Source: Cliona cf. orientalis (Eukaryota > Porifera > Demospongiae > Clionaida > Clionaidae). From it: a stretch of DNA of 64,000 nt. This document shows, piece after piece, positions 27,472-59,909 of the stretch (its first letter is position 1; each line of letters begins with the position of its first letter). Below the pieces are notes generated by a model. That model was not told the DNA's origin, did not search any database, and was given only the letters and a program-made list of their open reading frames with translations. The stretch covers positions 8,562,501 to 8,626,500 of the forward strand of contig OZ005698.1 in NCBI GenBank assembly GCA_963930775.1. The letters are read 5' to 3'. The translations under genes were made by a program, and so were the position numbers.

Positions 27472-30400
27472 ATGAATCAGGGTCGCCGCGCTCGCGGTGG
27501 GCACGCCCCAGGTCTGCTCGTGGATATTGGTGAACAATTTCAGAGATTAGAAGTGGCTGATCCGGCTCCCAGAGGTCGAGATCATCGAAGGAGAAACGGT
27601 GGTGAAGGAAACCCGAGAAGAAGAGGCGGAGGACGAGGAGCTGGTGGTCGTCGTGCGTCCAGAGATCGAGACGGTTCCGCAAATTTGGGGGATGCCCCCA
27701 TAGCTCGCGCAGCTGCAGACGCCCGCGGAGGCTTCCGTGGTGGGCGGGGGCGCGGAGCCCGCGGGGGTCGCGGGGGAAGGGGACGTGGAAGAAGATCAGA
27801 GGGAGCACAAACTAGTGCTGTGAAGTTCTTGACAAGGGATGACATTGACAAACTTGCTTGCTCTGGTCCCAGCGAAATCGTTGCTTGTATCGCAGAGAAT
27901 GATGGAGGGTTTTTGAATGCATTCAGCCAACCATTTAATTCTGAAAATCCGAAAACACTCAAATGTTTGATCAAGCTCCTCTACCTACTGGTAAAAAGTG
28001 ACGACAATCAACTTGCATCCCGTATTATTGCTGAGATATTCAACGATGCAAGTGGAACTTCGGTCTTTCTGAGAAATTTGGAAGTGACAATAAGGAAAAT
28101 GCCCACGGAGGATCGTGAGTTTATCCGACGAGAGAATATACAATGCCTGCATTACATTGTTGAAATAGGAAGTTTTGCACTATTGAGTGTACCTCAGTCG
28201 GTTATGTACACATTTCCTTATATGTCACTGCATGGCACCGCACAAAAGTTGTCACGAGGAGGAGAGAGTGTTGGCTCACTGCTTCAAAAGTCGCAGAAGT
28301 TGGTCGATGATTTTTCCAATGCCGTGGACCAGTCATGCCCCCAGCAGCCAGCAGCAATGGATGAAGACGTTCCAGATTACCCGCCGCCACCCGAGAACTT
28401 CACTACTATCCCAGTCTTGCCAACAATTAAAGCATTACAGCCAAGCAGAGATCCACCCTATCTAAGGCCAAACATCATCAAAGGAGCATATACAGATTGG
28501 GAGCACTACCTCGATGTGCAATTCAGATTGATGCGTGAAGATTTTGTGGCTCCACTAAGGGATGGAATTTCTCAGTGCACAGAAGATGTAGAGAGAAAGC
28601 ATCTCTCAGAGGTACGAGTTTATGATGGGGTCAGTTTTTGTAGTCCAGTGTGCACGTATTCAGGTATTGGATTTCAGATTCGTTTTGACGTTTCTAGGCT
28701 CCAGAGAGTGAACTGGGAGCACTCAAAGCGACTTATTTTTGGCTCACTCTTATGCCTGTCCAGTGATGATTTTCAGACAATACTGTTTGCCACCGTAGCA
28801 AAACGTGATGCGAAGCTCTTAGCAGAAGGCTTAGTGTCTATACAGTTCGAAGCAGATGTGCTTGAAGAGGTCTTCCAGATAGACCCTGATCAGCGTTTTG
28901 TAATGGTAGAGTCCACTGCTTACTTTGAGGCCTACCGTCACATCCTTGAAGGTCTCAAACGAGCCTCCCTTTATCACCTCACAGACAGACTTCCAATTTT
29001 TAAGCGGTATTTAGTTGACAGTGAGCTCAGTCCCCCAATTGCAGTGCCCAGATATCTACGTTTCTCTGAAAATCCAGTGTTACGGCTTAAAGAGGTCCTA
29101 TGCATTGAGAATAGTAGTCCAGATGTTGTCGTAACTGACCCAAAGAGCTGGCCTGCATGTGAAAACACTTGCTTAGACCCTTCCCAGCTCTCTGCTTTTC
29201 GTGCTGCACTTACACAAGAAGTATCCATTATTCAGGGACCTCCAGGAACAGGGAAAACGTACATTGGTCTGAAAATTGTTGAAGCTTTAATGGCCAACAG
29301 ACAAAAATTGAACAATTTTCCCATCTTAGTACTCTGCTACACCAATCATGCCCTGGATCAGTTTCTCGAGGGCATCCAGAAAATCAAACAAGAGCAGAAG
29401 CTTTATAAGCTGAATATAGTGAGAATTGGTGGACGATGTAAAACAAAGAGCTTGGAAAGTTGTGTTTTAAAAACAAAAATTGATGAACTCCGATCTATGA
29501 AGCTCATACCCACTAATTTGCATAAGCCGGCTGCCAATTGTCGAAGAGAAATCAGAATGTATAATGAGAGAATTGAAAGAGCTATAAAGAGTGTTGAGAT
29601 TACCCAAAATGGTGACAAAGTCTTCAGACTTCCCATCATTCAACAGTATATTCGTAGTGATCACCTTTTCCAGCTGACTGAGGAGAGGCCAACCGAAAAA
29701 GGCAGAGAAGTTGACGTGTGGCTGAATCTGTGGTATGTCTTTGAAGGAGAAGAAGAAAAAGGGGAACAGGCCATTGCAAAAGAACCTCAGGCTGTTGAAG
29801 ATGAGATGGAAAAGGATGATGCTGAACCAAATTCTGATGATGAATACATTCAAGTTGATGCAGAAGCGTATCGGCTTGAGGAAGACAGGATGATTGAAGG
29901 AGAAGAATTTGAATTACCTAAATCTGACAATGTGCATGATGATTTATATTCATCCAATGCATCTCAACAACACCGAAAAGATGACACACAATGGCAAGTC
30001 ATACAAATTAACGAAGATAAACGGAAGAAAAGAATCAGATATGGCCATTCACATCAGCCGATGACACAGGCTGAAGTTGATACAGTAACTAACATTTGGA
30101 AACTGAGCTTGAAGAACCGTTGGCGTCTCTACCTATATTGGGTGAATCAGTTGATAAGGAACCAGAAGCAACTCATTGCAAGAACAGCAAGGCTGTACAA
30201 TGAAGCATGCAGGCGGCACACTCAATGCCGCCACGAAATTGATGCCTATGTAATCCAGGGAGCAGACATTGTTGGAATGACAACAACTGGAGCTGCAAAG
30301 TACAACCATATCCTGTCAAGGATTTATCCAAAAGTTGTAATCATAGAGGAAGCAGCTGAAGTATTCGAAGCTCACGTGTTCACCTCTCTCACTCCAAGTG

Positions 30401-33267
30401 TTCAGCAACTCATAATGATTGGTGACCATAAACAACTCAGACCAAAGGCGAACTGCTACAATCTGGAAAAGAACTATGAATTTTGTGTCTCTCTATTTGA
30501 AAAACTTGCCAGAAATGATTTCCCAGTTTTCACATTGGAGGTACAGCACCGAATGAGACCTGAAATTGCTACACTTATCTGTCCAAGTATCTATGAGAAA
30601 TTGTTGAATCATGAAGATGTTCAGAACTATGAACATATTAAAGGTGTTGGAAAAGATCTTTTCTTTATTGACCATTGTGTTCGAGAGAAGGCAGTCCAAG
30701 ACAAAGATAGAAGTCACTCCAATGATCATGAAGCCGATTTTATGGTTGCTTTATGTAAGTACCTGCTAAAGCAAGGATATAGTCCAAGTCAGATCACCTT
30801 GCTGACAATGTACCGAGGACAGCTTTTGGAACTTAGGAAAAGAATGAAAAGGCGTGACTATGAAGGAGTTCGAGTTGCAGCTGTTGATGATTTCCAAGGT
30901 GAAGAAAATGACATAATTTTGCTTTCACTGGTTCGCAGTAACTCTGATGGAAACATTGGATTCCTCAAGATTGCAAATCGTGTATGTGTTTCCCTCTCCC
31001 GAGCAAGGATGGGATTTTATGTCATTGGCAACCTCTCAATGCTACGAGACAAATTTGAGACAGTTTGGCCTCAGATTATGGATGATATGTCCAGGAAAGG
31101 CTGCATAGGGAAAGCACTCTCTCTTTACTGCCAGAATCATCCAAAGACCGTTGTCAATGCAAGTAATTATAAAGATTTTCTTAAATGCCCCGAAGGTGGA
31201 TGCCAGGAAAAGTGTGGTATTCGACTTGACTGTGGCCATAGCTGTCCCAGGCTCTGTCATCCAGTTGACATTGAACACAAGAAAACTAAATGTATGGAAA
31301 AGTGCCTGAAACGTCTTGAATGTGGTCATGTTTGTAAGCGAACCTGTTGGAAGTGCAAGGAAGGTTGTCTTCCATGTGTGGAAAAAGTTGTTAAGAGAAT
31401 TGATCGCTGTGGACATGAAATAAAAATGCCTTGTCATAGGGATCCCTCAAGTTATCCCTGCTCAATAACATGTAGTACGAGGCTTGCTTGTGGCCACTTG
31501 TGTCAAGAACTATGCTCAAGACCATGTACTATAAACTGTCATGTCTATGTGATGAAGACACTACCATGTGGCCATATCAGAGAGATTCCTTGCTACCTAG
31601 ATGAAAACAAGGCCACATGCAATGAGCCTTGTAATAAACTGCTAGATTGTGACCATAAATGTTCTGGAAGTTGTTCAAAGTGTCATAGGGGGCGTCTTCA
31701 TGTACGCTGTCAGTCGAAATGTGGGCGCACTCTACCCTGTGGGCATGAATGCGATTTTCCGTGTACTCCTACTTGTCCTCCCTGTATGAAAGAATGCAAC
31801 AATTATTGCGTCCACAGTCGGTGCAATCGAAGATGCTATGAACCTTGTGTGCCCTGCAAGGAGCCCTGTGCATGGCAGTGTGAGCATCAAAGATGCACTC
31901 GTTTGTGTGGTGAAAGATGTAACCGTCCACCATGTAATGAGCCTTGCAAAAAGCAATTAAAATGTGGACATCCCTGCATTGGACTTTGTGGGGAAGAGTG
32001 CCCAGATAAGTGTCGAATTTGCGATCGAGATGAGGTATGTGAAATTTTTTTTGGCACTGAAGATGAAGAAGATGCCCGCTTTATTCAACTTGAAGAGTGC
32101 AAGCATCTGCTTGAAGTTGAAGGCTGTGATACATGGATGCATCAAGCTGATGATACTGATGAAGGCAAGCCAGTTGAAATTCAGTTCAAGGCCTGCCCTA
32201 AGTGTAAAACTCAGATTCGCAGAAGTCTTCGATATGGAAATATTGTCAAACAAACCCTTGAGGATCATGAGAGGATTAAGGAAACACAGCAAGTGAGTCT
32301 TAGCAGTGACATTATTACAAAATTAAGAAGAATTCAGGATGAAGTGCATGTGGCATGTCCTCCACGTTTATCACTTCGGGAAGAAAGAATAAGAGAGGCC
32401 ATAGAGCTTGTAGTACCCGGATTCAGAGCAAATGAAGTTTCCAAACGGCATGATCCCTCTCCTCATGAAGTTCTCTTTGAAGATATCAAAGAGAAATTGC
32501 AAGTTATGGGTGACAGGCTAGAACAGCGGTCATCTAAAGCTGAAAAAGGCCTTCCGCCACATGTTGTGAACAACGTTAATGCTCAGCTGGCCTATTTAGA
32601 AAACTTGGTCAAGATAGTGAAGCACTTAAAGCCAATACAATCGAAAATTACCACTTCTGATGCTTTAGCAGATGCTACCGGTGTTAATATTAAGGACATT
32701 CAGGATGATATACTTGTATTAGTCCGCTTTCTCATGCAAGATTTACTCTCTAAGCAACAAAAAGCTGACATCCAGTGTGAAATCTACCGCTTGATGAGTC
32801 TAATTAAATTAATGGATTTGTGGTACAAATTAAGAGGTCATGGAAAGCTACCAACACTTTCACAACATGACAAGTCAGAGCTTACTGCAATGGTGAAGCA
32901 ATTGAATGGCAATACCTGGAAGGTTAATGAAGAAGAACATTCTGAAATACTAGAATTTATTACCAAAATTAGCAAAGAGTACAAAGTTGAAGGTCTCACT
33001 GAAGCTGAACGAATTGAGATTGTGAAAGTGATGGATCTCCCACGAGGGCACTGGTTCAAGTGTCCAAACGGTCACATCTACTGTATTGGTGACTGCGGTG
33101 GTGCTATGGAGGAAGCTAAATGCCCTGAATGTGGTGCTAGGATTGGCGGGCAGCGTCATACACTGATAGCTGATAACCAGCTGGCTTCAGAGATGGATGG
33201 AGCTCGCCATGCCGCATGGTCTGAGTTTACAAATATTGCCAACTTTGATCCTAATCAGTTTAGATAA
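27472..33267 (+). CDS. ZNFX1: ZNFX1-like RNA helicase, copy A (intact)
   Basis: One uninterrupted exon, 1931 aa from the ATG at 27472. I chose this start because the upstream in-frame stretch looks like 5' UTR and the RG-rich segment begins here. Domains: RG/RGG-rich N-terminus (1-115); helical ARM-like region (about 115-330); conserved WEHYLDVQFRLMREDF block; SF1 UPF1-like helicase with GPPGTGKT (about 589), IIEEAAEVFEAHV (about 955), MIGDHKQLRP (about 980), AVDDFQGEEND (about 1137) and SLSRARMGFYVIGN; about eight NF-X1 zinc-finger units (about 1240-1520); C-terminal RZ finger GHWFKCPNGHIYCIGDCGG...CPECGARIGG (about 1856-1893). EEAA for motif II agrees with my recollection of the family. Human ZNFX1 senses dsRNA at mitochondria; worm ZNFX-1 supports small-RNA inheritance. 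The RZ finger is a ubiquitin-ligase element in RNF213. Confidence 0.93.
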   Translation: MNQGRRARGGHAPGLLVDIGEQFQRLEVADPAPRGRDHRRRNGGEGNPRRRGGGRGAGGRRASRDRDGSANLGDAPIARAAADARGGFRGGRGRGARGGRGGRGRGRRSEGAQTSAVKFLTRDDIDKLACSGPSEIVACIAENDGGFLNAFSQPFNSENPKTLKCLIKLLYLLVKSDDNQLASRIIAEIFNDASGTSVFLRNLEVTIRKMPTEDREFIRRENIQCLHYIVEIGSFALLSVPQSVMYTFPYMSLHGTAQKLSRGGESVGSLLQKSQKLVDDFSNAVDQSCPQQPAAMDEDVPDYPPPPENFTTIPVLPTIKALQPSRDPPYLRPNIIKGAYTDWEHYLDVQFRLMREDFVAPLRDGISQCTEDVERKHLSEVRVYDGVSFCSPVCTYSGIGFQIRFDVSRLQRVNWEHSKRLIFGSLLCLSSDDFQTILFATVAKRDAKLLAEGLVSIQFEADVLEEVFQIDPDQRFVMVESTAYFEAYRHILEGLKRASLYHLTDRLPIFKRYLVDSELSPPIAVPRYLRFSENPVLRLKEVLCIENSSPDVVVTDPKSWPACENTCLDPSQLSAFRAALTQEVSIIQGPPGTGKTYIGLKIVEALMANRQKLNNFPILVLCYTNHALDQFLEGIQKIKQEQKLYKLNIVRIGGRCKTKSLESCVLKTKIDELRSMKLIPTNLHKPAANCRREIRMYNERIERAIKSVEITQNGDKVFRLPIIQQYIRSDHLFQLTEERPTEKGREVDVWLNLWYVFEGEEEKGEQAIAKEPQAVEDEMEKDDAEPNSDDEYIQVDAEAYRLEEDRMIEGEEFELPKSDNVHDDLYSSNASQQHRKDDTQWQVIQINEDKRKKRIRYGHSHQPMTQAEVDTVTNIWKLSLKNRWRLYLYWVNQLIRNQKQLIARTARLYNEACRRHTQCRHEIDAYVIQGADIVGMTTTGAAKYNHILSRIYPKVVIIEEAAEVFEAHVFTSLTPSVQQLIMIGDHKQLRPKANCYNLEKNYEFCVSLFEKLARNDFPVFTLEVQHRMRPEIATLICPSIYEKLLNHEDVQNYEHIKGVGKDLFFIDHCVREKAVQDKDRSHSNDHEADFMVALCKYLLKQGYSPSQITLLTMYRGQLLELRKRMKRRDYEGVRVAAVDDFQGEENDIILLSLVRSNSDGNIGFLKIANRVCVSLSRARMGFYVIGNLSMLRDKFETVWPQIMDDMSRKGCIGKALSLYCQNHPKTVVNASNYKDFLKCPEGGCQEKCGIRLDCGHSCPRLCHPVDIEHKKTKCMEKCLKRLECGHVCKRTCWKCKEGCLPCVEKVVKRIDRCGHEIKMPCHRDPSSYPCSITCSTRLACGHLCQELCSRPCTINCHVYVMKTLPCGHIREIPCYLDENKATCNEPCNKLLDCDHKCSGSCSKCHRGRLHVRCQSKCGRTLPCGHECDFPCTPTCPPCMKECNNYCVHSRCNRRCYEPCVPCKEPCAWQCEHQRCTRLCGERCNRPPCNEPCKKQLKCGHPCIGLCGEECPDKCRICDRDEVCEIFFGTEDEEDARFIQLEECKHLLEVEGCDTWMHQADDTDEGKPVEIQFKACPKCKTQIRRSLRYGNIVKQTLEDHERIKETQQVSLSSDIITKLRRIQDEVHVACPPRLSLREERIREAIELVVPGFRANEVSKRHDPSPHEVLFEDIKEKLQVMGDRLEQRSSKAEKGLPPHVVNNVNAQLAYLENLVKIVKHLKPIQSKITTSDALADATGVNIKDIQDDILVLVRFLMQDLLSKQQKADIQCEIYRLMSLIKLMDLWYKLRGHGKLPTLSQHDKSELTAMVKQLNGNTWKVNEEEHSEILEFITKISKEYKVEGLTEAERIEIVKVMDLPRGHWFKCPNGHIYCIGDCGGAMEEAKCPECGARIGGQRHTLIADNQLASEMDGARHAAWSEFTNIANFDPNQFR

Positions 33268-33660
33268 ACGTTTATACGTAGTCACATTAGGATTTTGTTT
33301 CTCGATCACATTCTAACATTAGGCATATTATATAGGTGCCTATTATTGCTATTGTGTAGTCAGCTAACTATTTACTTTAGTTCATCTTATGCTGTTAATG
33401 TCGTTTGAGAAGGTAGTTGAATTAGTCAGTATAAATTGTGTGCTATTATTATGAGTTATTATGTGTAATCACTGTTTAATATTCTTATTGCTGTAGCCCA
33501 TCTCGAGCATGCGCGTGCGCACGTCCATATTATACCACATGCGCATATAAAAGCAGATCTGAGTAATCAGTTTAATTTTAGAACTGGACGGTTACGTAAT
33601 TAGTATAGGCATATTTTTATCTTAGTACCGTACAAAATAATATTATCCATACCCCATGAC
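33268..33660. promoter_or_regulatory. 3' flank of ZNFX1-A with duplicated promoter-like block
   Basis: After the stop codon the sequence runs into a block containing TGCGCGTGCGCA (33510-33521) and the segment from ACATGCGCATATAAAAGCAG to TCTTAGTACCG. The same block precedes ZNFX1-C (about 42540-42690), where it directly feeds an intact gene. Here it leads into a MACPF-like pseudogene, so it looks like a promoter left behind by recombination. Confidence 0.55.
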
Positions 33661-33663
33661 CAC

Positions 33664-34260
33664 CGCAAATCCATGAGGTTCACTATGGTGACATAATTAT
33701 TGGTACTGAAGAGGGCAACTTGTACGAGGGTTTTGTGAACGAGGTGGAGAGCACCCAGCACTTTCAAACCAACCTGAGTGCTTTGATTCCAGTTAATCAG
33801 CTTGTGAATTGACTCGGAACTTTCGAGAAGCTACAATGTGAGCCAGAAATCGGTGGGAAGGAAGATCACTACCCGCACCATCTCATTTCAAGCTCCTTTT
33901 GACACTTGAAGTTGCGAAACACCTCAAGGAAGAGCCAATTCACAAAATGGAAAAGAAATCATGGAGGGAATCAAACCAATGAACCATTTAAAGATCGCCT
34001 AAAGGAATGTATTGGGCAACAAAGAGAAGAGGTAGTGGAGAAGAAGCTATTGGAAGGCCAACAGGAGGGGGAAGAGCAAAATGGAGAGCTCTGGCAGCAA
34101 GGAAAACAAGGGAAGCAATATGGAAAAGATGAAGAGATCCAGCAACAAGGAGCTAAAGTATAGTACAGATGTCCTGACACAGTTGTATGAGCATCTATTG
34201 CTTGATAAAATTAATGTTGCCTGGTGCATATCTTCCTTGGCAACTAACAACCAAAATTAA
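33664..34260 (+). pseudogene. MACPF-like pseudogene fragment 1
   Basis: It matches the intact gene at 61331-62704 from the segment reading REVRYTDIIGTEEGN through the charged DRLKEWIGQQ region. It has premature stops (for example after NQLVN), several indels, no 5' exon and no 3' half. Its tail, including AGTACAGATGTCCTGACACAG, is shared with the copy at 51338. It is 5' and 3' truncated and cannot make the full protein. Confidence 0.8.
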
Positions 34261-34341
34261 TAAAGTATGTCCTGCTCACTAACTAAAGTACTATGTATAA
34301 GCTTATGCTATATCAAGCTAGGATCTTTTGTGATGGCAAAC

Positions 34342-34555
34342 CTGCAAAGTCTTTCCTAGTCCCATTTCATCACTGAGTATGCAGCCCGGCATGGCCATTC
34401 GAGTGTCTCTGGACTAGCCAGGAGAGGCCATCCAGCTGGTAGGAACGGAGCTTCACGCTGCAAAGACCCCATCCATCCAGATCAGACTGGCTCAGCTTCT
34501 TCACTGGCCCTCTGGAGCTCGAAGACACCTTATTGACAGCTCGTACAAACTCCAT
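34342..34555 (-). pseudogene. Duplicated CHD1L exon 1, copy 1 (antisense, frameshifted)
   Basis: Close copy of CHD1L exon 1 (26908-27117): same start context, [37 protein letters not shown] 4-base insertion (CCGG) before the Walker A coding segment breaks the frame. Both the ATG and the donor-side CTGCAAAG are kept. No downstream CHD1L exons exist here. Confidence 0.9.
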
Positions 34556-36443
34556 GTTCATAAGCTTATGTGAGCTCACTCCTTCACTTCCCAACTAACG
34601 CACACCACCAGGACTGATACCAGCCCCACCCACCTACGACTAGGCCTAATGTACACTATTGGGTCGAGTCCTCGGCGTTTGCAACGGACCTTGCACTTCA
34701 GATTTAATAACGGAAATTTTCACGATCTTCAGACAAGAAAGGTGATCGGGTTAGGATGTCCCAAGGGGATATCCTCCAATCCTGGAGCATGGCCTTGGAG
34801 GTTGCATGCAGAAACCCCTTGCGTGCACGTACTATTTCTTGAGAATTTGATATCCAGCAGAGCATGTGGGTCTAAATGAAAATCAATACTGAGAATACTA
34901 CACCCAGTAGAGCAAACTTTCACCGGAATTATGAATCTATTCTTGGTGCCCGCCCCCATATTATCGAAAAGCGCGACCGCACGCGCGCGAACAGAGCATG
35001 CGCAATGGCCATACATAGACGCTCTATCAATAATTTTATTAATAGTAATAGCTATTTTGTCTGGTTGTGATTGTGACCGTGGGCACTGCTTTTTATACTT
35101 TGATCTACTACGCCGTATAATAAATTGACGGATAATCGCCGCGGCGTGTATATTTATGGTCTATGCGTATAGTCAATGATTTTCGGAAGGATGATAACGA
35201 TACGCTAAGCGCGACAGTGCGGCACCAGTGCGTCGGTATGCGATCGCGATATCACAATCGTCTACTTCCGTTTTGATATTTATAGCTTCGCGAACGATGC
35301 AGGTGCACTCGGGCACCACGACACAATTCAGTTCAGATTTGCAGGTTTTTTAGAGAAAAAAAGGAGAGAGAGAGAAAGAAGAAAATACTAGCATTTTCGT
35401 CGTGGAATATAACGGTAAACATGATGTAACTGCTAATCTATGTACGTGCGCTGTTCATGATCAATAGCTGATATTACGTGTAGCTATAAGCTATCGGGCT
35501 GATTTGCCGCTAGCTAATTCATATTAAATATTATTTTTAAACTGTGAGCACGTTGCCGGTGGATCTGGATAGTAAACAGTTCTGAGAGTGACACTGAGCG
35601 GCATGAAATTTAATATGGCTCTCAGGGCCAGAGTACTAAAAATCAAGGCTAGGCGCTAGGCTGATGTAGCCTCGTCCCTAGGCCACTCCCATGTTTTCAA
35701 TATTGCACGCAGCATATTTATTGTTTGGCCCGATTAAAGAGTGCATGTGGTGTTATTGAAACAGTGTTACATTGCTTTATATTCCACTTTGGATGAAACT
35801 TCAATGTTGTTGATGTGGTAATAGCCTCGTCCCCAGGCCCTTTGATTCTTAGGGTAACGGAGCATGCGCAAACAGTGTGTACAAGGCCCTTTCTCCTCCT
35901 CCTCCTCAAAGGGCCTGGGTATGAGGCTAGGTGTGGTATCAGGAGTACATTACTAGGAATGTGCAACCCACATAGTAGTAGTACAATGATCTCTTTCGAG
36001 ATTTGACATCACAGAATATCATTAATATGCAACTACTAAACTTAAACCGTGAAGCCATGAAGGTTGTGTCTGCACTGTCCTGTCAGTGTTTTGATAGTAA
36101 TTAACTAGCTGCAGCTGCATCTATACAGAATGTAACTCAGTGGTTGCAACCTCAGTACCTTCTAATGATATTCAGGCCCATGTACGTACGTACAAGGGTG
36201 GTTATGATGTCACATCTGGAAAGAGATGTTTGCACTACTATTGTGTACGTTGCACACTCCTTAAATGTACTCCTGGTGGTATATAATAGCTATTTGGTAT
36301 CTTAGGCAAATAGTAAACTAATTAACAGATTGTAGCTACAGTTGCTTGGCTAAAAAAAAACTCAACACTGAGGCTATGAATATCATGACATTGTTGCACC
36401 ATTGGCATGAATCATTCATGATTCTTATTTTATGTAGAACCAA
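34556..36443. other. Region upstream of ZNFX1-B with probable promoter and 5' UTR
   Basis: A GC-rich CpG-containing stretch (about 34970-35010, with GAGCATGCGCAA) is the likeliest promoter. A purine-rich segment at 35355-35390 ending AATATAACG/GTAAAC (about 35412) may be a noncoding first exon, since a good acceptor (TTTTATGTAG, 36437) sits just before the ZNFX1-B start. A MITE lies at 35822-35929 and a lone MITE end at about 35667. No other coding sequence was recognised. Confidence 0.45.
35822..35929. mobile_element. Fold-back MITE (TAGCCTCG...GAGGCTA)
   Basis: TAGCCTCGTCCCCAGGCCCT at the left is inverted at the right (AGGGCCTGGGTATGAGGCTA... in plus sense). The flanks GATGTGGTA (35812-35820) and GGTGTGGTA (35930-35938) look like a 9-bp target duplication with one change. 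An A between left flank and element leaves the exact edge uncertain by one base. Confidence 0.8.
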
Positions 36444-39400
36444 ATGAGTCAAGTCCGAGGCCGGCAAGAAGTGTATCCCACAGCTCATTATGAGCCACAA
36501 AATGGTTCCAATTCAAGGTCACTAGGCCGAGGTGGAAGAGGCTACAGAGGAGGACCAGGAGGGCGTGGGCGTGGGCGTGGGCGTGGGCGTGGGCGTGGTC
36601 GAGGACATCCAGATCATCAGTCACATTATGATGGAGGTCAGTTCAGTGAGCTCGAGCAGGGGGGTGCTGTGGATTTTAGCGGTGGCATTGGTGGAGGATA
36701 TAGGGATCATAGTGGTGGTGGTAATGGGGATGGAAATTATCGCCGTGATCGTGGAAATCGGCAACATGGTCGTGGATATGATCGTGAAGATGGTCAACGG
36801 AGACCAGAGCATGATAATTGGAGTGAAAACCGTGGAGGTGGCCGTGGACCTAGACCTCCTGATCAGCAAAGTATTAGACATGATCGTGATTATAGTGATC
36901 ATGAGCACAAACGCAGACAACAGAGATCACGTGGACACATAAACATTTCAAGTGGAGCTAAATTTCTATCTACGGAACAAATCAAACAGCTTGCTTGTGG
37001 TGATTCTGATGATTTGATTACCTTTATTACTGAGAATGAGAGCATGTTTTTGACGACATACAGTCAGCAACGTTGCTGCAATCACCCCCTTACACTGAAG
37101 TATTTGATTAAATTTCTCCACCTGCTGGTGAAAAATGAAGATGCATATGATCTTGCTGCCCGTATTGTAGCACATGTCTTTAATGATACCGATTCTGGTA
37201 ACCAGGGAACCGTAGCATTCCGTAATAGTTTGGAAATGCTAATTAGAAAGATGCCGGCAGAAGCACGACCTCATGTTAAGCGTGAAAACCCACAGTACCT
37301 GAGATATATTGTTGAGATTGGTGAATATGCCATTGACACGGCACCTTTGTCCGTTCGGTTCACATTTCCCTCTCTATCGCTGAATCATACAGTGCAAAGC
37401 TTAAGCTTAATGCAAGGTGGTGGAGATAATCTCTACTTACTAGCTCAGGAAACGCAGGCTTTAGCTGATAAGTTTACCAGAGCACAGACACCTCAACCAA
37501 GGTTGACTAATGCTTCTTATGGAGCCCAAGCTCGTTCTCAAGATCAACCACCTGAGCATTTTACTGAATTACCAGTTTTACCCTCTACAGATGAGGTGCA
37601 CCCACATGCTCGTAAACCTTTCGTCAGGCCAAACATTACGAAGGGAGCATACACAGGTTGGGAGCATTACCTTGATGTCCAATTTAGGCTTATGCGTGAG
37701 GATTTCATTGCTCCGCTCAGAGATGGTATCAGGCACTATGAACGTCATGGTGCCAGAAATAAAGAAGTGATGGTATATGAGGGTGTCAGTGTGGGCGACA
37801 CCGTTTGCCTCCATTCTGGTGTTGGTTTCCAAATTCGTTTTGATGTGACTAGATTCCAAAGAATGAACTGGGAGCACTCAAAACGATTGATATTTGGGTC
37901 ACTCTTATGCCTATCGGATGATGGTTTTTACACTATTTTTTTGGCAACTGTTGTCAAACGTGACCCTAAACTCCTAAAAGATGGTCTTGTAACGGTACAG
38001 TTTGAAACTGATGCACTTGAACAGGTCTTTCAGATAGATCCTAGTCGACGGTTCACCATGGTGGAGTCTACAGCTTATTTCGAAGCTTATCGCCACATTC
38101 TTGAAGGTCTGCAACGAGCTTCAGCAGAAAATCTTACTGATCAGCTCCCAACTTTCAAAAGATATCTGGTTGATTGTAAGCTAAATCCTCCAGTACCTGC
38201 ACCAAGGTACATATATTTCTCACAAAATCCAGAATTCCAACTTAAAAATGTTTTGGATATTGTACATGGAATAAATCCAAATATTGTTCTTACCAATGAT
38301 TTGAGCTGGCCTGCCCATAAATACACATGCTTGGATTCTTCTCAACTCTCTGCTTTCCGCGCCGCACTTACCCAAGAGGTATCTGTCATTCAAGGACCTC
38401 CAGGAACTGGAAAAACGTTCATTGGTCTGAAAATTGTTGAAGCTCTTGTGGTTAATCAGCACAAATCCAGTCACTTTCCCTTATTAGTGCTCTGCTATAC
38501 TAATCATGCTTTGGATCAATTCCTTGAAGGAATATTGAAGATTAAGGAAAAATTTAGCTGGGATCTCAATATCTTGAGAATTGGTGGTAGGTGTAAAACT
38601 AAAGCCTTGGAAGAATTCATCCTTAACAAAAAGATTGAGGAGGTAAAATCTCAGCGAGCACTACCTAAAGATTTGTACAAAGAATCGTCAAGACTCAACA
38701 AAGAGATTCGGTCATGTCAGGAGCAGATTCAACGTGCTCAGAAAAGTGTTGCTGCTACAGAGAGTAAAGATAAAATATTTAAATTATCTGCTCTCAAAGA
38801 TGCCATTCACCCAAATCATTTCTCTCAGGATTCATCCAACACAGCGAGGAAGAGAGATCGATGTGTGGCTTAAACTGTGGTTCACCCATCAAGATGTGGA
38901 TCAAAATGAACCATTTGCTGATGAATTTGAGAATGAACACCATGAGGTGGATGACAGAGACAGTGGTGACGATCAGTCCGATTCTGATACCAATGATGAG
39001 TACATTGACGTTGATGCCGAGGCTTTCATGCTTGAAGACGAAAGAATGATGGAAGGAGAAGAATTTGAACTGCCAATGAATCTTCACGTACAAAGTGACC
39101 TCTACACAACCAATACATACGACAAGTGGCAAAAGGATGATGCTCAGTGGAATGTTGCACAAATTAGCGAAAGAGAACGACGGCATCGAATAAGGAAAGG
39201 ATATTCATATCAGCCAATGAGCAAGCAAGAAGCATATTCGGTTAATGATATCTGGAAATTGAGCTTACAAAAGAGATGGTCATTATACCTTCACTGGGTT
39301 AATGAATTAATTGCAACCAAGAAAGATCTTATTGCAGATATAGTAAGGATGTACGATGAAGTATGTAAACAGCACACCATATGCCGTCAGGAAATTGATG

Positions 39401-42306: not shown

Positions 42307-42727
42307 ATAAACGTTTATACGTAGTCACATTAGGCTTTGGTTTTTCTAATATTAGGCATAGGTGCTTATTATTGCTATTGTGTAGTCAGCTAACTATAGT
42401 TTATTCATCTTATGCTGTTAGCTGATGTCGTTTGAGAAGGTAGTTGAATTAGTCAGGTTGTTGTCAGTAATTGTGTGCTATTATTATGAGTTAGTATAAT
42501 CACTGTTGTTCTCGACAATAATTATTAAACCTATTATTGCTGTAGCCCGGCGCCCATCAGATTCTCGAGCATGCGCGCGCACGTCATTACATGCGCATAA
42601 AGCAGATCCGAGTAATCAGTTTAATTTTAGAACCGGACGGTTACGTAATTAGTATAGGCATATTTTTATCTTAGTACCGAACAAAATTATCCATACCCCT
42701 ATAGCTAGCTTGGTGAACCTCTGATCC
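42307..42727. promoter_or_regulatory. Intergenic block between ZNFX1-B and ZNFX1-C
   Basis: Only 421 bases separate the genes. The first half matches the 3' flank of copy A (ACGTTTATACGTAGTCACATTAGG), and the second half, with GCATGCGCGCGCACG, matches the promoter-like block after A. It must hold B's 3' UTR and C's promoter. Confidence 0.55.
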
Positions 42728-50389: not shown

Positions 50390-51337
50390 TTTTATGTCAT
50401 GCATAAAAAATTCATCAAGCCAGACTATGGCCAATGTATGTGACAAAATCAAATCTAACTTATTAAATGCCTCACGGTAAATAAGCACAGGATGAGGAGT
50501 GTAATAATAATAATAAATTAATAATAATAATGATTGATAGACAATGTTTGAAGAGTTGAGAAGAGAGAAGGTAGATTAGAGAGGTTGGGGGTGATGTGAA
50601 ACTTGCCAAACAAGAAAATGGCCCAGGCCGGCCATGGGGTGTTTACCGTGTGCACTGTGTACGATGGATGCTATGGCATGTGAAATCTTAATTGCAGATC
50701 TTGGCTATACGTAAACGTGGATCATGCAAATTAGTTCTTTAAATCAGTTAACATCCATGGTATCAACTATGTCTGCACAAGGCTTCATTCTTAGAATCCA
50801 GTCCATTTATTATGAGAAAGCTACTAAAATCCAACTACGATTACATTGGAACCCATGGCATATTCTGCAACAAGAAAGAGGCAGGAAAAGGGCGGAAAAT
50901 ATAATGCACTATATATTATAATACAGTTTTCTCATGCACGTGCAAAATTAATATTATATTATTATGGTATATACCAGTGAACTTCAAAGAGGATCCATTC
51001 AAGAATCCGTATTAACCTAGACCATGCAAGGATTCTGTAATGAGTTTCCTTCATGTGTGAGAGATTATAGCACCCATAAAAGTAAAATTCCAATCAGATT
51101 GACGCAACAAGTCCAAAAAATTCCCTGTACCTAATATGGCTACCTTTTTATTATAAAATCAGGCCTGCAGAGTTGCCTGCAACTGAAAAATTCAAGCCTC
51201 AAGAATCAACCACCAGAAAGAGATACTAACGATCATTGGATATCACAAGAACATTATCCTGTGGCTAACGTGCAGTATTTTTGATATCATCGAAATCTAT
51301 TATTGCATTACCAGCTAACCCCACATTGTACTGCTGA
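49970..51337. other. Duplicated upstream segment of the MACPF-like gene
   Basis: From about 49970 to 51337 the sequence parallels 60215-61330, upstream of the intact MACPF-like gene: shared blocks CAGTACTGATGCCATACTTA, AATAGCTAGTAGTTTGCTTATTAAAG and GTATGTCTGCACAAGGCTTC. It differs by small indels and the GATA array at 50345-50390. It presumably holds the MACPF promoter. No long ORF. Confidence 0.65.
50345..50390. repeat. (GATA)n microsatellite
   Basis: About ten tandem GATA units, absent from the homologous segment near 60560. Confidence 0.9.
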
Positions 51338-52222
51338 ATGATGGCAAGCAAAAATGGAGGTGAGTTGCAGCAACTTGTACAACACTAGCTATATAGCTAG
51401 TACATACAATGTCATGTGTAAAATAAATGCTGCCGTGAGGTATATATTATATTATACTGCGGCTATCTAGCAACAATGTGTCTTTACATGTGCAGGTGAA
51501 GATACAACAAACACTGAAACAAATATCAGGAGGGTGATGAAGGAAGGAGAAGAAAAGTCGTTCCAGGACCTTGGGCTTGGCCATGGAGTGGATGCTACAA
51601 ACCCCACACCTTGGCTCAACAAAAGATCACTGCAAATCCGTGAGGTTCGCTATACTGACATAGCTAATTGGTACTGAAGAGGGCAACTTATACCAGGGTT
51701 TTGTGAACGAGGTGGAGAGCACCAAGCACTTTCAAACCAACCTGAGCGCTTCGGTTCCCGTTAATCAGCTTGTGAATTTGGGAATTGACGTGGAGCTCTC
51801 GAGAAGCTACAGTGTGAGCCAGAAGTCGGTGGGAAGGAAGATAGCTACCCGCACCATCTCATTTCGAGCTCCTTTTGACACTTGAAAGTTGCAAAACACC
51901 TCAAGGAAGAGCCAATTCATAAAATGGAAAAGAAATCAAGGAGGGAATCAAACCAATGAGTCATTTGAAGATCGCCTGAAGGAATGGATCAGGCAACAAA
52001 GAGAAGAGGTAGTGGAGAAGAAGTTATTGGAAGGCCAACAGGAGGGGAAAGAGCAAAATGGAGAGCTCTGGCAGCAAGGAAAACAAGGGAAGCAATTAGT
52101 CTCGTGCCCAGCCCCCTTTCATGCACGCGGAAAGAAGGGGGCTGGGCACGAGACTAGGGAAGCAATACTATGGGAGAAGATGAAGAGATCCAGCAACAAG
52201 GAGCTAAAGTATAGTACAGATG
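51338..52222 (+). pseudogene. MACPF-like pseudogene 2
   Basis: It keeps the first exon (51338-51359) and acceptor (exon 2 from 51496) of the intact gene at 61331, but a 4-base insertion near 51662 shifts the frame into TGA. A second indel follows after the RTISFRA segment, and the 3' half is missing. A 60-bp MITE is inserted at 52097-52156. The tail matches fragment 1 (33664-34260). Confidence 0.85.
52097..52156. mobile_element. 60-bp fold-back MITE with 10-bp target duplication
   Basis: Nearly a perfect palindrome beginning TAGTCTCGTGCCCAGCCCCC. Direct flanks GGGAAGCAAT occur at 52087-52096 and 52157-52166. It is inserted in a MACPF-like pseudogene; pseudogene 1 lacks it, so the insertion is younger than the duplication. 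Confidence 0.9.
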
Positions 52223-52364: not shown

Positions 52365-52515
52365 CCCTCTGGACTAGCCCGGAGAGGCCATCCAGCTGGT
52401 AGAAACGGAGCTTCATGCTGCAAAGATCCCATCCATCCAGATCAGACTTGTTCAGCTTCTTTATAGACCCTCTGGAGCTCGAGGATACCTTACTGACAGC
52501 GCGTACGAACTCCAT
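52365..52515 (-). pseudogene. Duplicated CHD1L exon 1, copy 2 (antisense, truncated)
   Basis: It matches CHD1L exon 1 from the start codon (FVRAV, SDLDGW) to the SGLVQR segment, then stops matching before Walker A. Several substitutions (for example WGLC to WDLC) mark it as relaxed. Confidence 0.88.
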
Positions 52516-52585
52516 ACCAACTTCCCAACTAACGCGCACCACCGTGATACCAGCCCCATGGCCCACTACACTACTACCTGCACTC

Positions 52586-52947: not shown

Positions 52948-52983
52948 TAGTCTCGTGCCCAGCCTCTTTATCGCATGAGACTA
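52948..52983. mobile_element. 36-bp remnant MITE with 9-bp target duplication
   Basis: TAGTCTCGTGCCCAGCC...CGCATGAGACTA, flanked by GGTACTCCC (52939-52947) and GGTACCCCC (52984-52992). Only the outermost ends of the inverted repeats remain. Confidence 0.8.
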
Positions 52984-53089
52984 GGTACCCCCTAAAAGCC
53001 CCCCTCCCCCCCACAGACTAAGTCCTTGCCGCCCCCCTCAAGACACAATTTAATACAACTCCAGGAGTCTCAGAGTGTTTGCTGCCGAT

Positions 53090-54385
53090 ATGTCTGGCCC
53101 TCCTAGTGATCTCAAATTTGAGCTTCAACATATCATCATCGCTGTCCAGAATGTAAGTGAATGGTACAACCTTGGCCTTCAACTAGGTCTACCAGACTCC
53201 ACTCTAGCAGACATAGCCTCCCACCCGGATGTCAGTGGACACAAACGACGCATGCTCTCGGAGTGGCTCAAGCGTGATACGGAGGCGAGTTGGGATAAAC
53301 TTGCCAATGCTCTCAGTATCATCGGAGAGAATGTGGTTGCCACTAACATAAAGAGCCGATTTGTGAAAGCTGCTGCTGCTACTCCTGGACCTGTAGTTAA
53401 TGCTTCTAATGAAAATGATAAAACATGTAGGCCTCTATACATATAATTATGTACATGTAGCTACACCACTATCCATTGCCCATTAATCTCTAGCAGGTCA
53501 GCCCTACCCATCCACCTATTCTAATGTGCATAATTATGGGTAATTATGTATATAATTCTACTTCCAGGTCAAGAAATGGCTCAGACTGTCCTTCAAAAGA
53601 TCAAAGGTCAATTTGCATCACTTCAAGTCGAAGTTCGATCAGCCATGGAAGCTCGCCAAGTGAAAGTAAAGGATGTCCATCAGTTCTTGGTGTCCTTCTT
53701 CCAGACTGAATCCCGCATTCCTGAAGCTCCTGACCTCACTAAGCTTTTCAACATCATAACTGAGGCTATGCTTTGGAGTTATGATCACTACAGTCCTCTA
53801 AAGGAACTCACTGAAAAATTTTTACCGGACAATAACCCGGCGAGAAAGCTTGTGAGTGAATACAAAAACCAGCTCTCTGGTTTCTATACTACCACGAAGA
53901 TCATCGATTTCATTGATCTGTCTGAGCTTGATGATCCTGAAGATGACTCTGACAGTGATTCTGAGGATGGTGCTAAGCAGTCTCTCTCACCAAAGGAGTA
54001 CAAGAAGCTTTATCATGAGCTCAAAGTGACATTGAAACTGGACAGGAAGATTAAACTTTCGGACTTGACCATGAGCTATGTCGAAACCCTATGGAAGGCA
54101 TTGATTGAGGAGTTCAACCTGGAGTGGATTGCAAGTGATAGAGTTAATAGTGCACATGATGATGGAGGTCAGTCCAATGAGCAGGGGATGCTGTGGGTTT
54201 TAGTGGTGGCCCTGGTCAAGAATATAGGGGTGGTGGTGTTGGTAGTAATGGGGGTGGAAATTATCACTGTGGTCGTGGAAATTATCGGCAACATTGTTGT
54301 GGATATGATTGTGAAACTAAACGCTGCGGTGGGAGCGGTCTGGCTTACAAGACTAGGTAGGAACAGAGCTTCACGCTGCACATGA
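53090..54385 (+). CDS. Death-domain protein with fused out-of-frame ZNFX1 segment
   Basis: Two exons, 53090-53426 and 53568-54385, join in phase (384 aa). Residues 8-95 form a death domain (six-helix pattern; WYNLGLQLGLPDSTLADIA, MLSEWLKRD, SWDKLANALSIIGENVVA). A helical middle region (IPEAPDLTKLFNIITEAMLW, acidic DDPEDDSDSDSED) and a second helical unit (SPKEYKKLYHELKV...LWKALIEEFNLEW) follow; I know no function for them. From about 54150 the DNA matches the RGG segment of ZNFX1-B (36627-36790), first in frame, then shifted, so the C-terminal 70 or so residues are probably not native. The true 3' end may have been replaced by this fusion. Death domains act in apoptosis and immune signalling. 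Confidence 0.7.
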
Positions 54386-54474
54386 CCATACCCATCCTGA
54401 TCAGACTGGCTCAGCTTCTTCACAGGCCCTCTGGAACTTGAGGAAGCCTTGTTGACTGCTTGAATAAACTTCAT
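54355..54474 (-). pseudogene. Duplicated CHD1L exon 1, copy 3 (antisense, truncated)
   Basis: It matches the first half of CHD1L exon 1 ([24 protein letters not shown]) and then diverges. It lies head-to-head with ZNFX1-D, exactly as the real exon 1 lies against ZNFX1-A. Confidence 0.85.
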
Positions 54475-54510
54475 AGCCTCCAATTAGTGCACACAAACAC
54501 ACCCCAGTGC

Positions 54511-54573
54511 TAATCTCGTGAGCCAGCCCCTCCTACGCAAAGAAAGAGAGGGAGGGGCTGGCACACGAGATTA
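54511..54573. mobile_element. 63-bp fold-back MITE upstream of ZNFX1-D
   Basis: TAATCTCGTGAGCCAGCCCC...GGGGCTGGCACACGAGATTA, a near-palindrome flanked by CCCAGTG on both sides. It sits in the copied CHD1L/ZNFX1 promoter and is absent from the parent region (about 27140-27170). Confidence 0.85.
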
Positions 54574-54894
54574 CCCAGTGATGTAATTATTGTTATGACC
54601 AGCACCACCCCTAGCATGGATGCAGCAATACTTCACGCATGCGTACTATATCCCAATGCAAAGTACGTATCATTACACATAGTTAATTATAGAACAGAGA
54701 TCGGATTACACTACTGATGAATGAGCAATTTTAATACTGGGGTCTTTTTTATTTTTGCCAAGTCACTTGTTGACAAAAATTTTGCTGTATAATCCAGTCT
54801 GTATTCCTGGCATAGTAAATTGTATTATAGTTTAAGTAAAGTCGTCTGCTCTTATCCCGATCTTATCATTTGCTTACATGCTATAGCTGTTCCA

Positions 54895-57800
54895 ATAAAT
54901 CAGGGTCGCCGTGCTCGCAGTGGGCACGTCCCAGACCTGCTCATGGATATTGGTGAACGATTAGAAGTGGCTGATCTGGCTCAAGGTCATCGAAGGAGAA
55001 ACGGTGGTGAAGGAAACCTGAGAAGAAGAGGTGGCGGACGAGGAGCTGGTGGTCGTCGTGCATCCAGAGATCAAGACGGTGCCACAAATTTGGGGCCGCC
55101 ACCACCTCAGCATTTTACAGACTTGCCCGTTTTGCCATCAACCAAAGAATTGCAACCTGATGCTGATGAACCGTATCTTAGGCCAAACATTACGACCGGA
55201 GGGTACGAAGATTGGGAGCACTACCTCGACGTTCAATTTAGACTGTTGCGTGAAGATTTCGTAGCCCCTCTCAGAGATGGTATTCAACTCTATGAGCCCA
55301 GTGGTATTGGCAGAAAGCATCTATCAGAAGTACGAGTGTATGAGAAAGTAAACGTACGTAGCCCAGTGTGCTTGCCGTCAGGTACTGGGTTTCAGATTCA
55401 TTTCGACATCAGTAAACTTCTTAGAGTGAACTGGGAGCATTCAAGGAGGCTCATTTTTGGATCACTCTTGTGCTTGTCACATGATAATTTTCAGACGATG
55501 ATGTTCGCGACTGTTGCAAAACGAAACCCGAAGCTTTTAGCAGATGGACTAGTCATGGTCCGATTTGAACATGATGGACTTGAAAATGCATTCCAAATAA
55601 ATCCTGACCAGCTCTTTGTGATGGTAGAGTCTACGGCATATTTTGAAGCATATCGGCACATTCTTGTGGGCCTTCAGCGAGCTTCAACCGAGCATACTAC
55701 AGACAAGCTTCCTATATTCAAACGATACCTAATTGATTGTCAGTTTGAAAATTCAGTTCCTCCACCTGAATATTTGCTCTATTCGGGAAGGCCCACATTT
55801 CGACTAAAAGAAGTTCTAGACATCAAGGTTGGTAGTCCTGATGTTGTCCTTACCAATCCTGATAATTGGCCTCACTGTGAGCATACGTGCTTAGATGCTT
55901 CCCAGCTGCGTGCCTTCCGTGCTGCACTTACTCAAGAGGTCTCTGTCATCCAGGGTCCTCCAGGAACTGGAAAGACATTCATTGGTCTAAAGGTTGTCGA
56001 AGCTCTTGTTGCCAATCAGCGCAGATCAAGAACCAGTAATTTTCCAATTTTAGTCCTTTGCTATACCAACCATGCTTTAGATCAATTTCTTGAAGGTATT
56101 CTACAAATTAAGACTCCTGAAAACAAGGAACTCAATATTGTCAGAATCGGAGGAAGGTGTAAAACCGAGAAACTAGAGCACTGCATTTTGAGAGCAAAAG
56201 TTGACAGAGTGCGATCCCAGAAATTATTGCCAGCTAATCTCCACAAGAAATCAGGCAAACTCTACAGGGACGTTCAAATGCTTCGAGAGAGGATCGAGGC
56301 AGCTCAGAAAAGCATTGACGCAACAATTAATGGAGACAAAATATTCAAATTGTCTGCTCTTGAGGAGTTTATACCAGAGAATCATTTATTTCAGCTCACC
56401 CAGGAAAAACCAACAGAGCGAGGACGAGAAATTGATGTGTGGCTTAAACTGTGGTACGTTTTTGAAGATGAAGAAGCAGAGCCACTTTTACAAGACCCTC
56501 TAGTACAAGAAGAAGTGATTCCTGTCATAGATGACAATGCCGTCGGTATCCAATTGGAACCAGAGGATGAACTTATTGATGTCGATGCTGAGGCAAACAG
56601 AATTGAGGAGGAGCGAATTCTCGAAGGAGAACTATTTGATTTCCCAATGCCTAGGAGACGTACTAATTCGCAAAACGAGCAGTTATTTGTATCCAATACG
56701 GCTCATATCCAAACGAAAAATGATGAACAGTGGAGCGTTGTGCAGATCAGTGATGAAGAACGACGAAGGAGGATTAGACGAGGCTACTTAAATCAACCAA
56801 TGACGGACATTGAAGCCATTTCAGTCAGAAATATTTGGAACATAAGCTTAAAGAATCGCTGGCGTCTGTACCAGTACTGGGTGAACCAACTGATTGTGAC
56901 ACGAAAGCAGCTTGTTGCAAGAACGGCAAGGCTGTACAATGAATTGTGCAAAGAATTTACTGTGTGTCAGCAAGATATTGATGCCCATGTCATCCGTGGA
57001 GCAGATATTATTGGAATGACAACAACTGGTGCTGCAAAGTATAACCACATCTTGTCCAATATCTATCCCAAAATAGTCATCATAGAAGAAGCGGCCGAAG
57101 TGTTTGAAGCACATGTGTTCACATCCCTTACACCCAGTGTTCAGCAGCTTATCATGATTGGTGATCACAAGCAACTCAAACCAAAGGCGAACTGCTACAA
57201 ACTGGAAAAGAAGTTTGAATTTTGCGTTTCATTGTTTGAAAGACTTGCCAGAAATAATTTTCCCGTATTCACCTTAGAAGTTCAGCATCGAATGCGGCCT
57301 GAAATAGCTTCTCTTATCTGTCCCAGTATATACCAGAATCTGTTGAATCACAAGGACGTTGAATGTTATGAACACGTGAAAGGTGTAGGCACTGATCTCT
57401 TCTTTATCGATCACCATGCTCCAGAGAAGGATATCGACGACAAAGACAGGAGCCATTCCAATGATCATGAAGCTGAATTTTTGGTTGCTTTGTGTAAGTA
57501 CTTGCTGAAGCAAGGATATCGTCCTGACCAGATCACTTTGCTAACCATGTACCGTGGACAACTTTTAGAGTTGAGAAAGAAAATGCGAAGACGAGATTAT
57601 GATGGTGTGAGAGTTGCAGCTGTTGACGATTTTCAAGGTGAAGAAAACGATTTGATATTACTTTCCTTTGTACGTAGTAACAGCGAGAAGAAGATAGGAT
57701 TCCTCAATATTCCAAACCGGATTTGTGTTTCTCTTTCGAGAGCAAAGGTCGGATTTTATGTCATTGGTAATCTTTCGATGCTGCGAGACAGACATGACAC

Positions 57801-59909
57801 GGTGTGGCCAGAAATTCTCATGGATTTACTCCGAAAGCATTGCACTGGCAAAGCATTGCCGCTATATTGTCAGAATCACCCACAAACTGTGGTAATGGCT
57901 AGTTGTGCGAAAGATTTCCTTAAATGTCCAGAAGGTGGTTGTCAGCAGAAATGCTCAGTGAGGTTAAACTGTGGTCACAGCTGTCCCAGACTTTGTCATC
58001 CGATAGACAAAGAACATGAACACGTTCACTGTCGACAAAATGTTCGAAAATTCTCAAATGTGGTCACTATTGTAAAAACCAATGCTGGAGGTGCAAAGAT
58101 GGATGTCTTCCTTGCAATGAGATGGTCACAAAAAGGATATACTCGTGCGGCCATGAAATACAAATGCAATGTCACGAAGATCCCTTTATCTACAGTTGTA
58201 CAAAACCATGTGAAAGAGTTTTAAAGTGTGGTCACCGCTGCCAGGAACTCTGCTCCACACCTTGCACAAGAAAGTGCTTCGCCGACGTTGCGAAGATGCT
58301 ACCATGTGGTCACACGAGAATGGTCCCTTGCTTTCTTGATGCCGGTGCAGCTGAGTGCAGAGAAGTTTGCAACGAGAGGCTGGATTGTGGTCATGCTTGT
58401 TCTGGTGACTGCCAACAGTGTCGAAAAGGTCGTCTTCATATCCGCTGCCAATCAAAGTGTGGACGTACTCTAGTATGTGGTCATGAATGCAAATTTCCAT
58501 GCACTCCGACCTGTCCTCCGTGTATGATGCAGTGTAACAATTATTGTGTCCATAGTCGATGCAGTCGAAGATGCTACGAACGTTGTATTTCCTGCAAGGA
58601 GCCCTGTATGTGGCAGTGTGAACATCACAAGTGCACTCGTCTGTGTGGTGAAATATGTAACCGCCCCCCATGTGATGAGCCGTGTAAGCTGCGTTTGAGA
58701 TGTGGACACCAGTGCATTGGACTTTGTGGGGAAAAGTGTCCAAGTAAGTGTCGTATCTGTGACAGAGATGAAGTTTGTGAAATTCTCTTTGGCACTGAAG
58801 AAGACGAAGATGCCCGCTTTGTTGAACTTGAAGAATGCAAACATTTAATCGAAGTTACAGCCTTAGATACGTGGATGGAACAAGTTGGCAATGAAAGCAA
58901 GCCATCTGAAGTTCAATTCAAGACCTGCCCTAAGTGTAAAACTCAGATCCGAAAAAGTCTACGATATGGGAAGTATGTAAAGCAAACTCTCAAAGATTAC
59001 GAGAACATAAAAGAAAAACAACTTATAAATCTCAGTAGTGATCTCCTAACAAAATTTGCACAAGTTCAAATTCAAGCTAAAAAAGTTGCTTCTGCTTCAT
59101 TTGTATGTCTTGAAGAGAGCTTGAAGCTCATAGATGAAATACTGCAGCCATCTACTGGCACTCGAAAGTATAAAACTGCTCTTCCGCCACATCAAATAAA
59201 CAACATCAATGCTCAGTTGACCTATTTGACCTCTGTAGTGAGGATGCTTAAATATCTGACATCACTGCAGTCACCCACATCTGCTAATGTCCATCGTATT
59301 ATTTCTGCAATATCTACTGTCGGCATTAAGGATATTCAAGAGGACATAGTTGCTCTAGTCAACTTTCTAATGCAAGACTTTCTCTCTGATCAACACAAAA
59401 CCGATATTCAAAGTGAAATTTATAGACTGATGAGTTTGATCAAGTTATTGGATTTGTGGTGTAAAACTAAGACTCGTGGAATAATTCTCTCAGCAAGTGA
59501 TAATCAATTGTTAGCTTCCAAGGTCGAAAGAGCACAGAACGGTGGCTGGAAATCAGATACATTTAAGGAAGAGGAACACGATGAAACTATCAGCTTTGTG
59601 AAAAGGATTAGTGCACAGTATCATGTTGATGGCCTTACAGAGTCTGAAAGAATTGCAATTGTGAAAGCTATAGGACTCACTAAAGGTCACTGGTTCAAGT
59701 GTCCTAATGGTCACTACTACTGTATCGGTGAGTGTGGTGGTGCTACGGAGGAATCTACTTGTCCTGATTGTGGTAAAAGGATTGGAGGTCAAAGCCACGC
59801 TCTACGAGCTGATAATCGACTGGCACCAGAGATGGATGGAGCTCGCCATGCTGCATGGTCTGAGGCGGCAAATAATATGGACAACTTTGATCTAGATCAT
59901 CTTTGGTAA
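54895..59909 (+). pseudogene. ZNFX1: ZNFX1-like copy D (chimeric, start lost, frameshifted)
   Basis: The 5' part (to about 55096) matches copy A's RG-rich start; from about 55097 it matches copy C from PPPPQHFTDLPVLPS on, skipping about 200 codons of ARM-like region. The start codon equivalent to A is ATA (54895-54897); the next in-frame ATG is 54943. The frame runs intact through all helicase motifs to about 58040, where a run of five A in copy C is four A in D. The rest (NF-X1 fingers, RZ finger, ends at TAA 59907) continues in another frame from about 58041. The RZ finger ends CPDCGKRIGG and the tail (SEAANNMDNFDLDHLW) differs from A-C. It could be a pseudogene, or the A-run could be a sequencing error. 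Confidence 0.85.

Follow-up and report, generated by a model that had tools for sequence, protein, structure and literature searches.

The 64,000-nucleotide (nt) stretch of Cliona cf. orientalis DNA analyzed here (the window) carries an array of four ZNFX1 genes, named A to D, at positions 27472–59909 of the + strand. The locus as a whole very probably goes back to an old tandem multiplication of the ZNFX1 helicase gene in a demosponge; purifying selection would have maintained the copies, with gene conversion or unequal crossover locally reshuffling parts of them. Copies A, B, and C are ancient and on average conserved, and D alone is young. This history corrects the idea, put forward in an initial annotation of the sequence, that the locus is a fast arms-race island.

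Structure and domain content of the array

As listed in Table 1, the four genes share one orientation and are single-exon-like, and the domains of each are covered by one stop-free frame (A and C) or by two overlapping frames (B and D); their coordinates and Pfam domains fit the four ZNFX1-like genes of the initial annotation. A and C had been described there as intact, B as frameshifted, and D as chimeric. A and C are indeed open over 2002 and 1914 amino acids (aa), respectively, the stop-to-stop frame of A spanning 27259–33267 with its first Met used at 27472. The break in B was traced to 8 nt that are missing from it when it is aligned with the other three copies. D was confirmed as a chimera, A-type at its 5′ end and C-type in its body (97% identity), but that description was incomplete, as D is also frame-broken and without an ARM domain. 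Its first frame ends after an A run near 58037 that has one base fewer than in C. Furthermore, the start Met of A is Ile in D, whose first Met in frame occurs 16 codons later, and the A-type N-terminus runs directly into the C-type part following the ARM domain, leaving a clean ARM loss. Chance open frames were ruled out as a source of the array frames by comparison with 20 simple shuffles of the window, in which the longest stop-free run was 261 codons versus 629–2002 in the six array frames. Splice rescue of the break in B was also considered. Thirty GT-AG candidates (40–159 nt) leave an open frame, but their donors are weak, the best ones matching 4 of 6 consensus bases (15 of the 30 candidates shown), and an intron was rejected because A, C, and D align with this region as coding sequence.

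Table 1. Features of the ZNFX1 array and its surroundings (window positions)
Feature	Position	Strand	Basis or content
First exon of CHD1L gene, head-to-head with A	26860..27126	-	PDB and Pfam matches
5′ tract common to A and D	A 27177..27690, D 54598-55095	.	80% in BLAST
ZNFX1 copy A, open frame	27472..33267	+	RG-rich N-terminus, ARM domain, ZNFX1 domain, SF1 helicase, Cys-rich region, RZ finger
3′ tract common to A and B (RZ finger and 3′ end)	A 33107..33424, B 42140-42451	.	Windowed identity
MACPF-like gene fragment, downstream of A	33660..34052	+	Sequence match
Decayed CHD1L first-exon copy, upstream of B	34336..34564	-	DNA match 92%
ZNFX1 copy B, first frame	36438..38873	+	N-terminus, ARM, ZNFX1 domain, first part of helicase; ends after 8-nt deletion near 38828
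ZNFX1 copy B, second frame	38647..42306	+	Remaining helicase through RZ finger
ZNFX1 copy C, open frame	42725..48469	+	All domains, 1914 aa
Body tract common to C and D	C 43651..48453, D 55095-59899	.	97.2%
MACPF-like gene copy, downstream of C	51477..52029	+	DNA match 50594-52064 at 86%
Decayed CHD1L first-exon copy	52366..52518	-	Sequence match
Death-domain exon between C and D	53054..53443	+	PF00531, 30.6 bits versus 22.6, E 3.8e-7
Decayed CHD1L first-exon copy, upstream of D	54385..54483	-	Sequence match
ZNFX1 copy D, first frame	54793..58224	+	A-type 5′ end, C-type body from near 55095 onward, no ARM domain
ZNFX1 copy D, second frame	58020..59909	+	Remaining Cys-rich part, RZ finger
MACPF-like open frame, downstream of D	61472..62704	+	Pfam match below cut-off

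Domain content supported the identification of the four genes as ZNFX1. The ZNFX1 domain (PF25396) scored above cut-off in all four (E 3.9e-36 to 1.9e-32), and the RZ finger (PF20173) matched A, C, and the second frames of B and D. AAA_11 and AAA_12, the two halves of the superfamily 1 (SF1) helicase, matched in each of the nine copies found in the genome, and all nine (B being read from two frames) contain, with small variations, the seven stretches that we take to be helicase motifs I, Ia, II, III, IV, V, and VI. A sequence search of the PDB matched 28 distinct sequences at E up to 1e-5, among them UPF1/NAM7, aquarius, SMUBP2, SEN1, DNA2, RNF213, and similar proteins. In the comparison among the four array copies, an N-terminal ARM domain was found in A, B, and C and was missing from D. 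When the ARM region of A (27814–28425) was modeled from an alignment with B and C (pLDDT 83, pTM 0.77), the top Foldseek match of the model was 9eve, the ARM domain of human ZNFX1 as solved by crystallography (E 1.0e-3, TM 0.70/0.81); the search gave 723 matches with E up to 10, and the tool's own count at E up to 0.001 was 0. A Cys-rich region with five or six CG[HA]xC motifs is present in A, C, and the second frame of B, and the zf-NF-X1 family was not reported at E up to 0.01. The first 260 frame residues hold 12–16 RG in A, B, and C and 0–6 in the other six copies (2 in D), and these RG-rich N-termini of A–C suggest RNA binding or granules.

Age, selection, and exchange between the copies

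Divergence was estimated by the Nei-Gojobori method in whole-gene pairwise comparisons, which covered 1846–1876 codons for A, B, and C. Synonymous divergence (dS), nonsynonymous divergence (dN), and their ratio were 2.05, 0.31, and 0.15 for A–B; 2.08, 0.28, and 0.13 for A–C; and 1.95, 0.31, and 0.16 for B–C, these ratios being rough means at saturated dS (approximately 2), which positive selection at single sites would escape. The split of A, B, and C is old, but saturated dS gives it no date. The rapid local birth and death proposed in the initial annotation does not agree with these values, and only D is young (dS 0.066–0.084 in the tract that it shares with C). The comparison of dN/dS among the copies, which the initial annotation had itself proposed, gave purifying selection on average, one element of the outcome named there as speaking against its view.

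C and D were compared inside their common tract, ungapped, from 43661 to 46583 and from 46607 to 48289 of C. Before the break in D, 974 codons held 42 synonymous and 13 nonsynonymous changes (dS 0.066, dN/dS 0.087), and after it, 561 codons held 29 and 22 (dS 0.084, dN/dS 0.20), figures computed without the 5′ end, which is unrelated, and without the final 177 coding bases of C, over which D is more divergent. With all alignable codons, the ratio was 0.20 before the break, 0.37 after it, and 0.245 overall. Had D evolved neutrally and contributed half of the divergence, it would be expected to show approximately 81 and 59 nonsynonymous changes in the two tract parts, whereas 13 and 22 were seen, and the neutral expectation was rejected both before (P 1e-20) and after the break (P 3e-8). 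Thus, the frame of D was kept by purifying selection for most of its life, and its break is therefore recent or an assembly error; the break in B would likewise be one or the other.

Assembly or sequencing errors in genes that are in fact intact offer a possible, if doubtful, account of both breaks. The break in D is a single base in a homopolymer A run, B and D are each otherwise covered by two stop-free frames, and both are constrained on either side of the break. The 8-nt deletion in B, however, is no homopolymer slip, D is also without the start Met of A and the ARM domain, and the post-break part of D is slightly less constrained than the pre-break part (Fisher p 0.04, a single uncorrected test). 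The difference in dN/dS (0.087 before versus 0.20 after the break) would also suit a D that works as a shortened helicase without ARM domain and RZ finger, translated from an internal Met in a frame of 1143 codons, and the first frame does hold complete ZNFX1 and helicase domains. We consider such a protein unlikely, because the post-break part is still far from neutral, fitting a D that was full-length until recently; in addition, the start Met of A is gone, and the divergence may predate the present form of D.

The tracts shared between copies were delimited by windowed identity. For A–D, seven of eight 100-column windows over 27000–27700 were 85–92% identical and one was 70.5%, followed by 34%, which placed a sharp end at 27700/55099; this tract rests on BLAST and windowed identity and was absent from the output of the permutation test described below. 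C–D windows were 94–100% identical from approximately 43641/55085 to 48290/59733, the window just before being at 41% and those at the 3′ edge at 95.3, 94.0, 86.4, and 58.5%. A–B windows reached 93–95% over the RZ-finger end (33055–33432) versus 48–68% in the four preceding windows, marking this common 3′ end as young. All three tracts have edges that fall within genes. In a permutation test on the 2387 polymorphic columns present in all four copies (500 permutations), the shared segments were matched in 0 of 500 permutations for A–B and for C–D, and the A–C and B–C segments were located near the same 3′ end as the A–B tract. These tracts fit gene conversion or unequal crossover, with a direction of exchange between copies that we infer. 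At 86% identity, the MACPF-like flanks of C and D have diverged more than the gene bodies, which favors an older duplication and then conversion of the body. Together, the C–D, A–D, and A–B tracts illustrate cleanly how old paralogues exchange sequence piece by piece.

Several observations weigh against this history. The copied non-coding pieces of the locus, 80–92% alike, look younger than A, B, and C, and the locus does rearrange. Broken frames in two of the four copies are in keeping with decay, and the C–D tract ratios omit the last 177 coding bases of C, with which the post-break ratio is 0.37. Furthermore, the permutation test found weak or no segments in four of the six pairs (A–C 14, A–D 181, B–C 6, and B–D 28 of 500), and C–D could be one recent duplication and not a conversion, given that identity at the 3′ end of the tract drops gradually, within a few hundred bases. 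An immune island with fast birth and death, whose copies arise and decay quickly in host-parasite conflict, would be in line with the single young chimera, the frame breaks in two copies, the likeness of the copied flanking pieces, and the nearby death-domain exon. It is nevertheless improbable in view of the saturated dS and low mean dN/dS of A, B, and C and the constraint on C–D; the other family-matched neighbors (CHD1L, a kelch-kinase, and a SURP-domain frame) are also not immune genes, albeit with neighbors identified only in part and gene content annotated from approximately 19 kb of the window onward. We thus retain the old array with purifying selection and local exchange.

Neighboring genes and decayed satellites

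The decayed satellites that the initial annotation had left unnamed are real. Part of them are pieces of a CHD1L first exon and others come from a MACPF-like gene, and these pieces mark past duplication units. The CHD1L neighbor itself carries SNF2 and Helicase_C domains (Pfam), and the three best of its PDB matches were CHD1L (E 3.2e-15), with 73 SNF2-type sequences matched in all. Given the recurring CHD1L exon and MACPF-like pieces, the duplicated unit would have comprised the CHD1L first exon, ZNFX1, and the MACPF-like gene.

Death-domain and MACPF-like genes had been reported to be interleaved with the array, making it a candidate innate-immunity island. One clear death-domain exon was found, and the open frame following it (53534–54385) matched no family. 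The MACPF assignment was below threshold: PF01823 scored 20.0 bits versus a cut-off of 21.5, a PDB sequence search with the frame gave nothing at E up to 1, and its single-sequence fold was uninformative (pLDDT 38). The proposed island therefore retains one death-domain gene, whereas the MACPF match is sub-threshold and the other family-matched neighbors belong elsewhere. These include the chromatin remodeler CHD1L, a protein kinase with C-terminal kelch repeats, encoded in a single frame of 822 aa at 19158–21626 of the window (- strand), and a SURP-domain frame just outside the window. Downstream of the MACPF-like frame, two open pieces at 62755–63999 (+) contain a diverged repeat (30% over 110 aa, E 0.001) and matched no Pfam family above cut-off.

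ZNFX1 in the sponge genome and in other animals

The genome searched (217 Mb, 149 contigs) holds at least nine PF25396 matches, a lower bound from nine candidates scored: four in the array, three on contig C2, and one each on C16 and C18. Those on C2 form a second same-strand array at 14.247–14.275 Mb, with three old copies (L019, L021, and L023) that are 43–49% identical to each other in aa sequence; the RZ finger is retained in the middle copy alone. Each of the five copies outside the window lies in one frame of 1728–2267 codons, and the RZ core is missing in three of the nine copies, all among these five (C2a, C2c, and C16). The C16 copy (L026:2590-9390) is the most isolated ZNFX1, with the 2267-codon frame, no RZ finger core, and a long branch in the C-terminal tree. 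A phylogeny of the ZNFX1 proteins had been suggested in the initial annotation. Within this genome, trees of three segments (377, 531, and 533 columns) split the array copies from the remaining copies at 100 in each, but support within the array (57–90) fixed no branching order; in the middle segment tree, the D row ends in an out-of-frame tail. A and C, plus the copies on C2, C16, and C18, are presumably working genes. An early-branching animal keeps several old, conserved ZNFX1 copies. Those without an RZ finger are natural variants for asking what each ZNFX1 part does.

When seven window pieces were compared by tblastn with 20 loci (L018–L037) and the window, outside matches were to the death domain only, at L024 (beyond C2c) and L033 (near C3), which is too little to claim linkage of death-domain or MACPF-like genes with other ZNFX1 loci. 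Two further RZ-finger matches lie outside the ZNFX1 copies (C5:4551674-4551775 and C7:831196-831282), and our guess is that they are RNF213-like. Contig C149 (19.6 kb), of which the first 10 kb were read, is mitochondrial, with cox1 and ATP synthase subunit C (atp9) by Pfam, 11 tRNAs, and atp6, cox3, and cob read by eye from code-4 frames. Among animals, an atp9 gene in the mitochondrial genome is a hallmark of sponges, and with code 4 in agreement, the host is very probably a demosponge. On contig C3 at approximately 2.938–2.943 Mb (L031:8662-9999, L032:1-5349), a 1896-codon frame joins a eukaryotic RNA-dependent RNA polymerase (RdRP; PF05183, E 3e-105) to an SF1 helicase (AAA_11/AAA_12). Passages of two papers describe an amphioxus RdRP with an added AAA_12 domain (PMC6396948) and the sponge Amphimedon as being without RdRP (PMC6211395), and the RdRP-helicase gene therefore deserves study of its own.

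According to passages of one paper, vertebrate ZNFX1 binds double-stranded RNA, modulates innate immunity, and is under purifying selection, and RNF213 requires its RZ finger for ubiquitylation (PMC11959080). By analogy, the helicase core of the sponge proteins would bind foreign or aberrant RNA as reported for vertebrate ZNFX1, and the RZ-finger copies may also ubiquitylate as RNF213 does. An antiviral or RNA-surveillance role would be the likeliest function of the sponge ZNFX1 proteins, which we hold with moderate confidence. It is a long shot that the array serves as a recombination workshop, in which paralogues exchange promoter plus N-terminus, helicase body, and RZ finger as independent pieces, D being a selected new ARM-less helicase with an A-type promoter, and that the RdRP-helicase fusion could couple ZNFX1 to small-RNA amplification. 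We judge the array instructive but mostly ordinary.

Like human and other vertebrate ZNFX1 (solved structures PDB 9q9z and 9eve), the array proteins have an ARM domain (A–C), the ZNFX1 domain, and the SF1 helicase, followed by the Cys-rich region and the RZ finger. They differ in that the sponge genome has at least nine copies, the intact ones holding their domains in one open frame, and in that C2a, C2c, and C16 are without the RZ core and D is without the ARM domain. C. elegans ZNFX-1, by its name a ZNFX1 helicase, acts in the inheritance of small RNAs, as stated in passages of PMC11959080. The RdRP-helicase encoded by the sponge genome is a possible small-RNA amplification setting, but the role in small-RNA inheritance is that of the nematode protein. 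Passages of two further papers give 11 ZNFX1 copies for the earthworm Eisenia andrei, of which 9 change expression in regeneration and not infection (PMC7253469), and three potential ZNFX1 genes for Aplysia (PMC9334734). The earthworm and Aplysia share with the sponge the presence of more than one ZNFX1, whereas tandem layout, age, and common tracts were worked out for the sponge array, layout being undiscussed for the other two in those passages. No title on tandem layout or gene conversion of sponge ZNFX1 was found among those listed in the literature searched, weak evidence of absence with subscription journals thinly covered. A 2022 survey by Blasi et al. reportedly describes invertebrates, among them sponges, sea urchins, and molluscs, that have several ZNFX1 genes composed of few exons. 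Invertebrates with more than one ZNFX1 are already known, and this array adds a case with a worked-out history.

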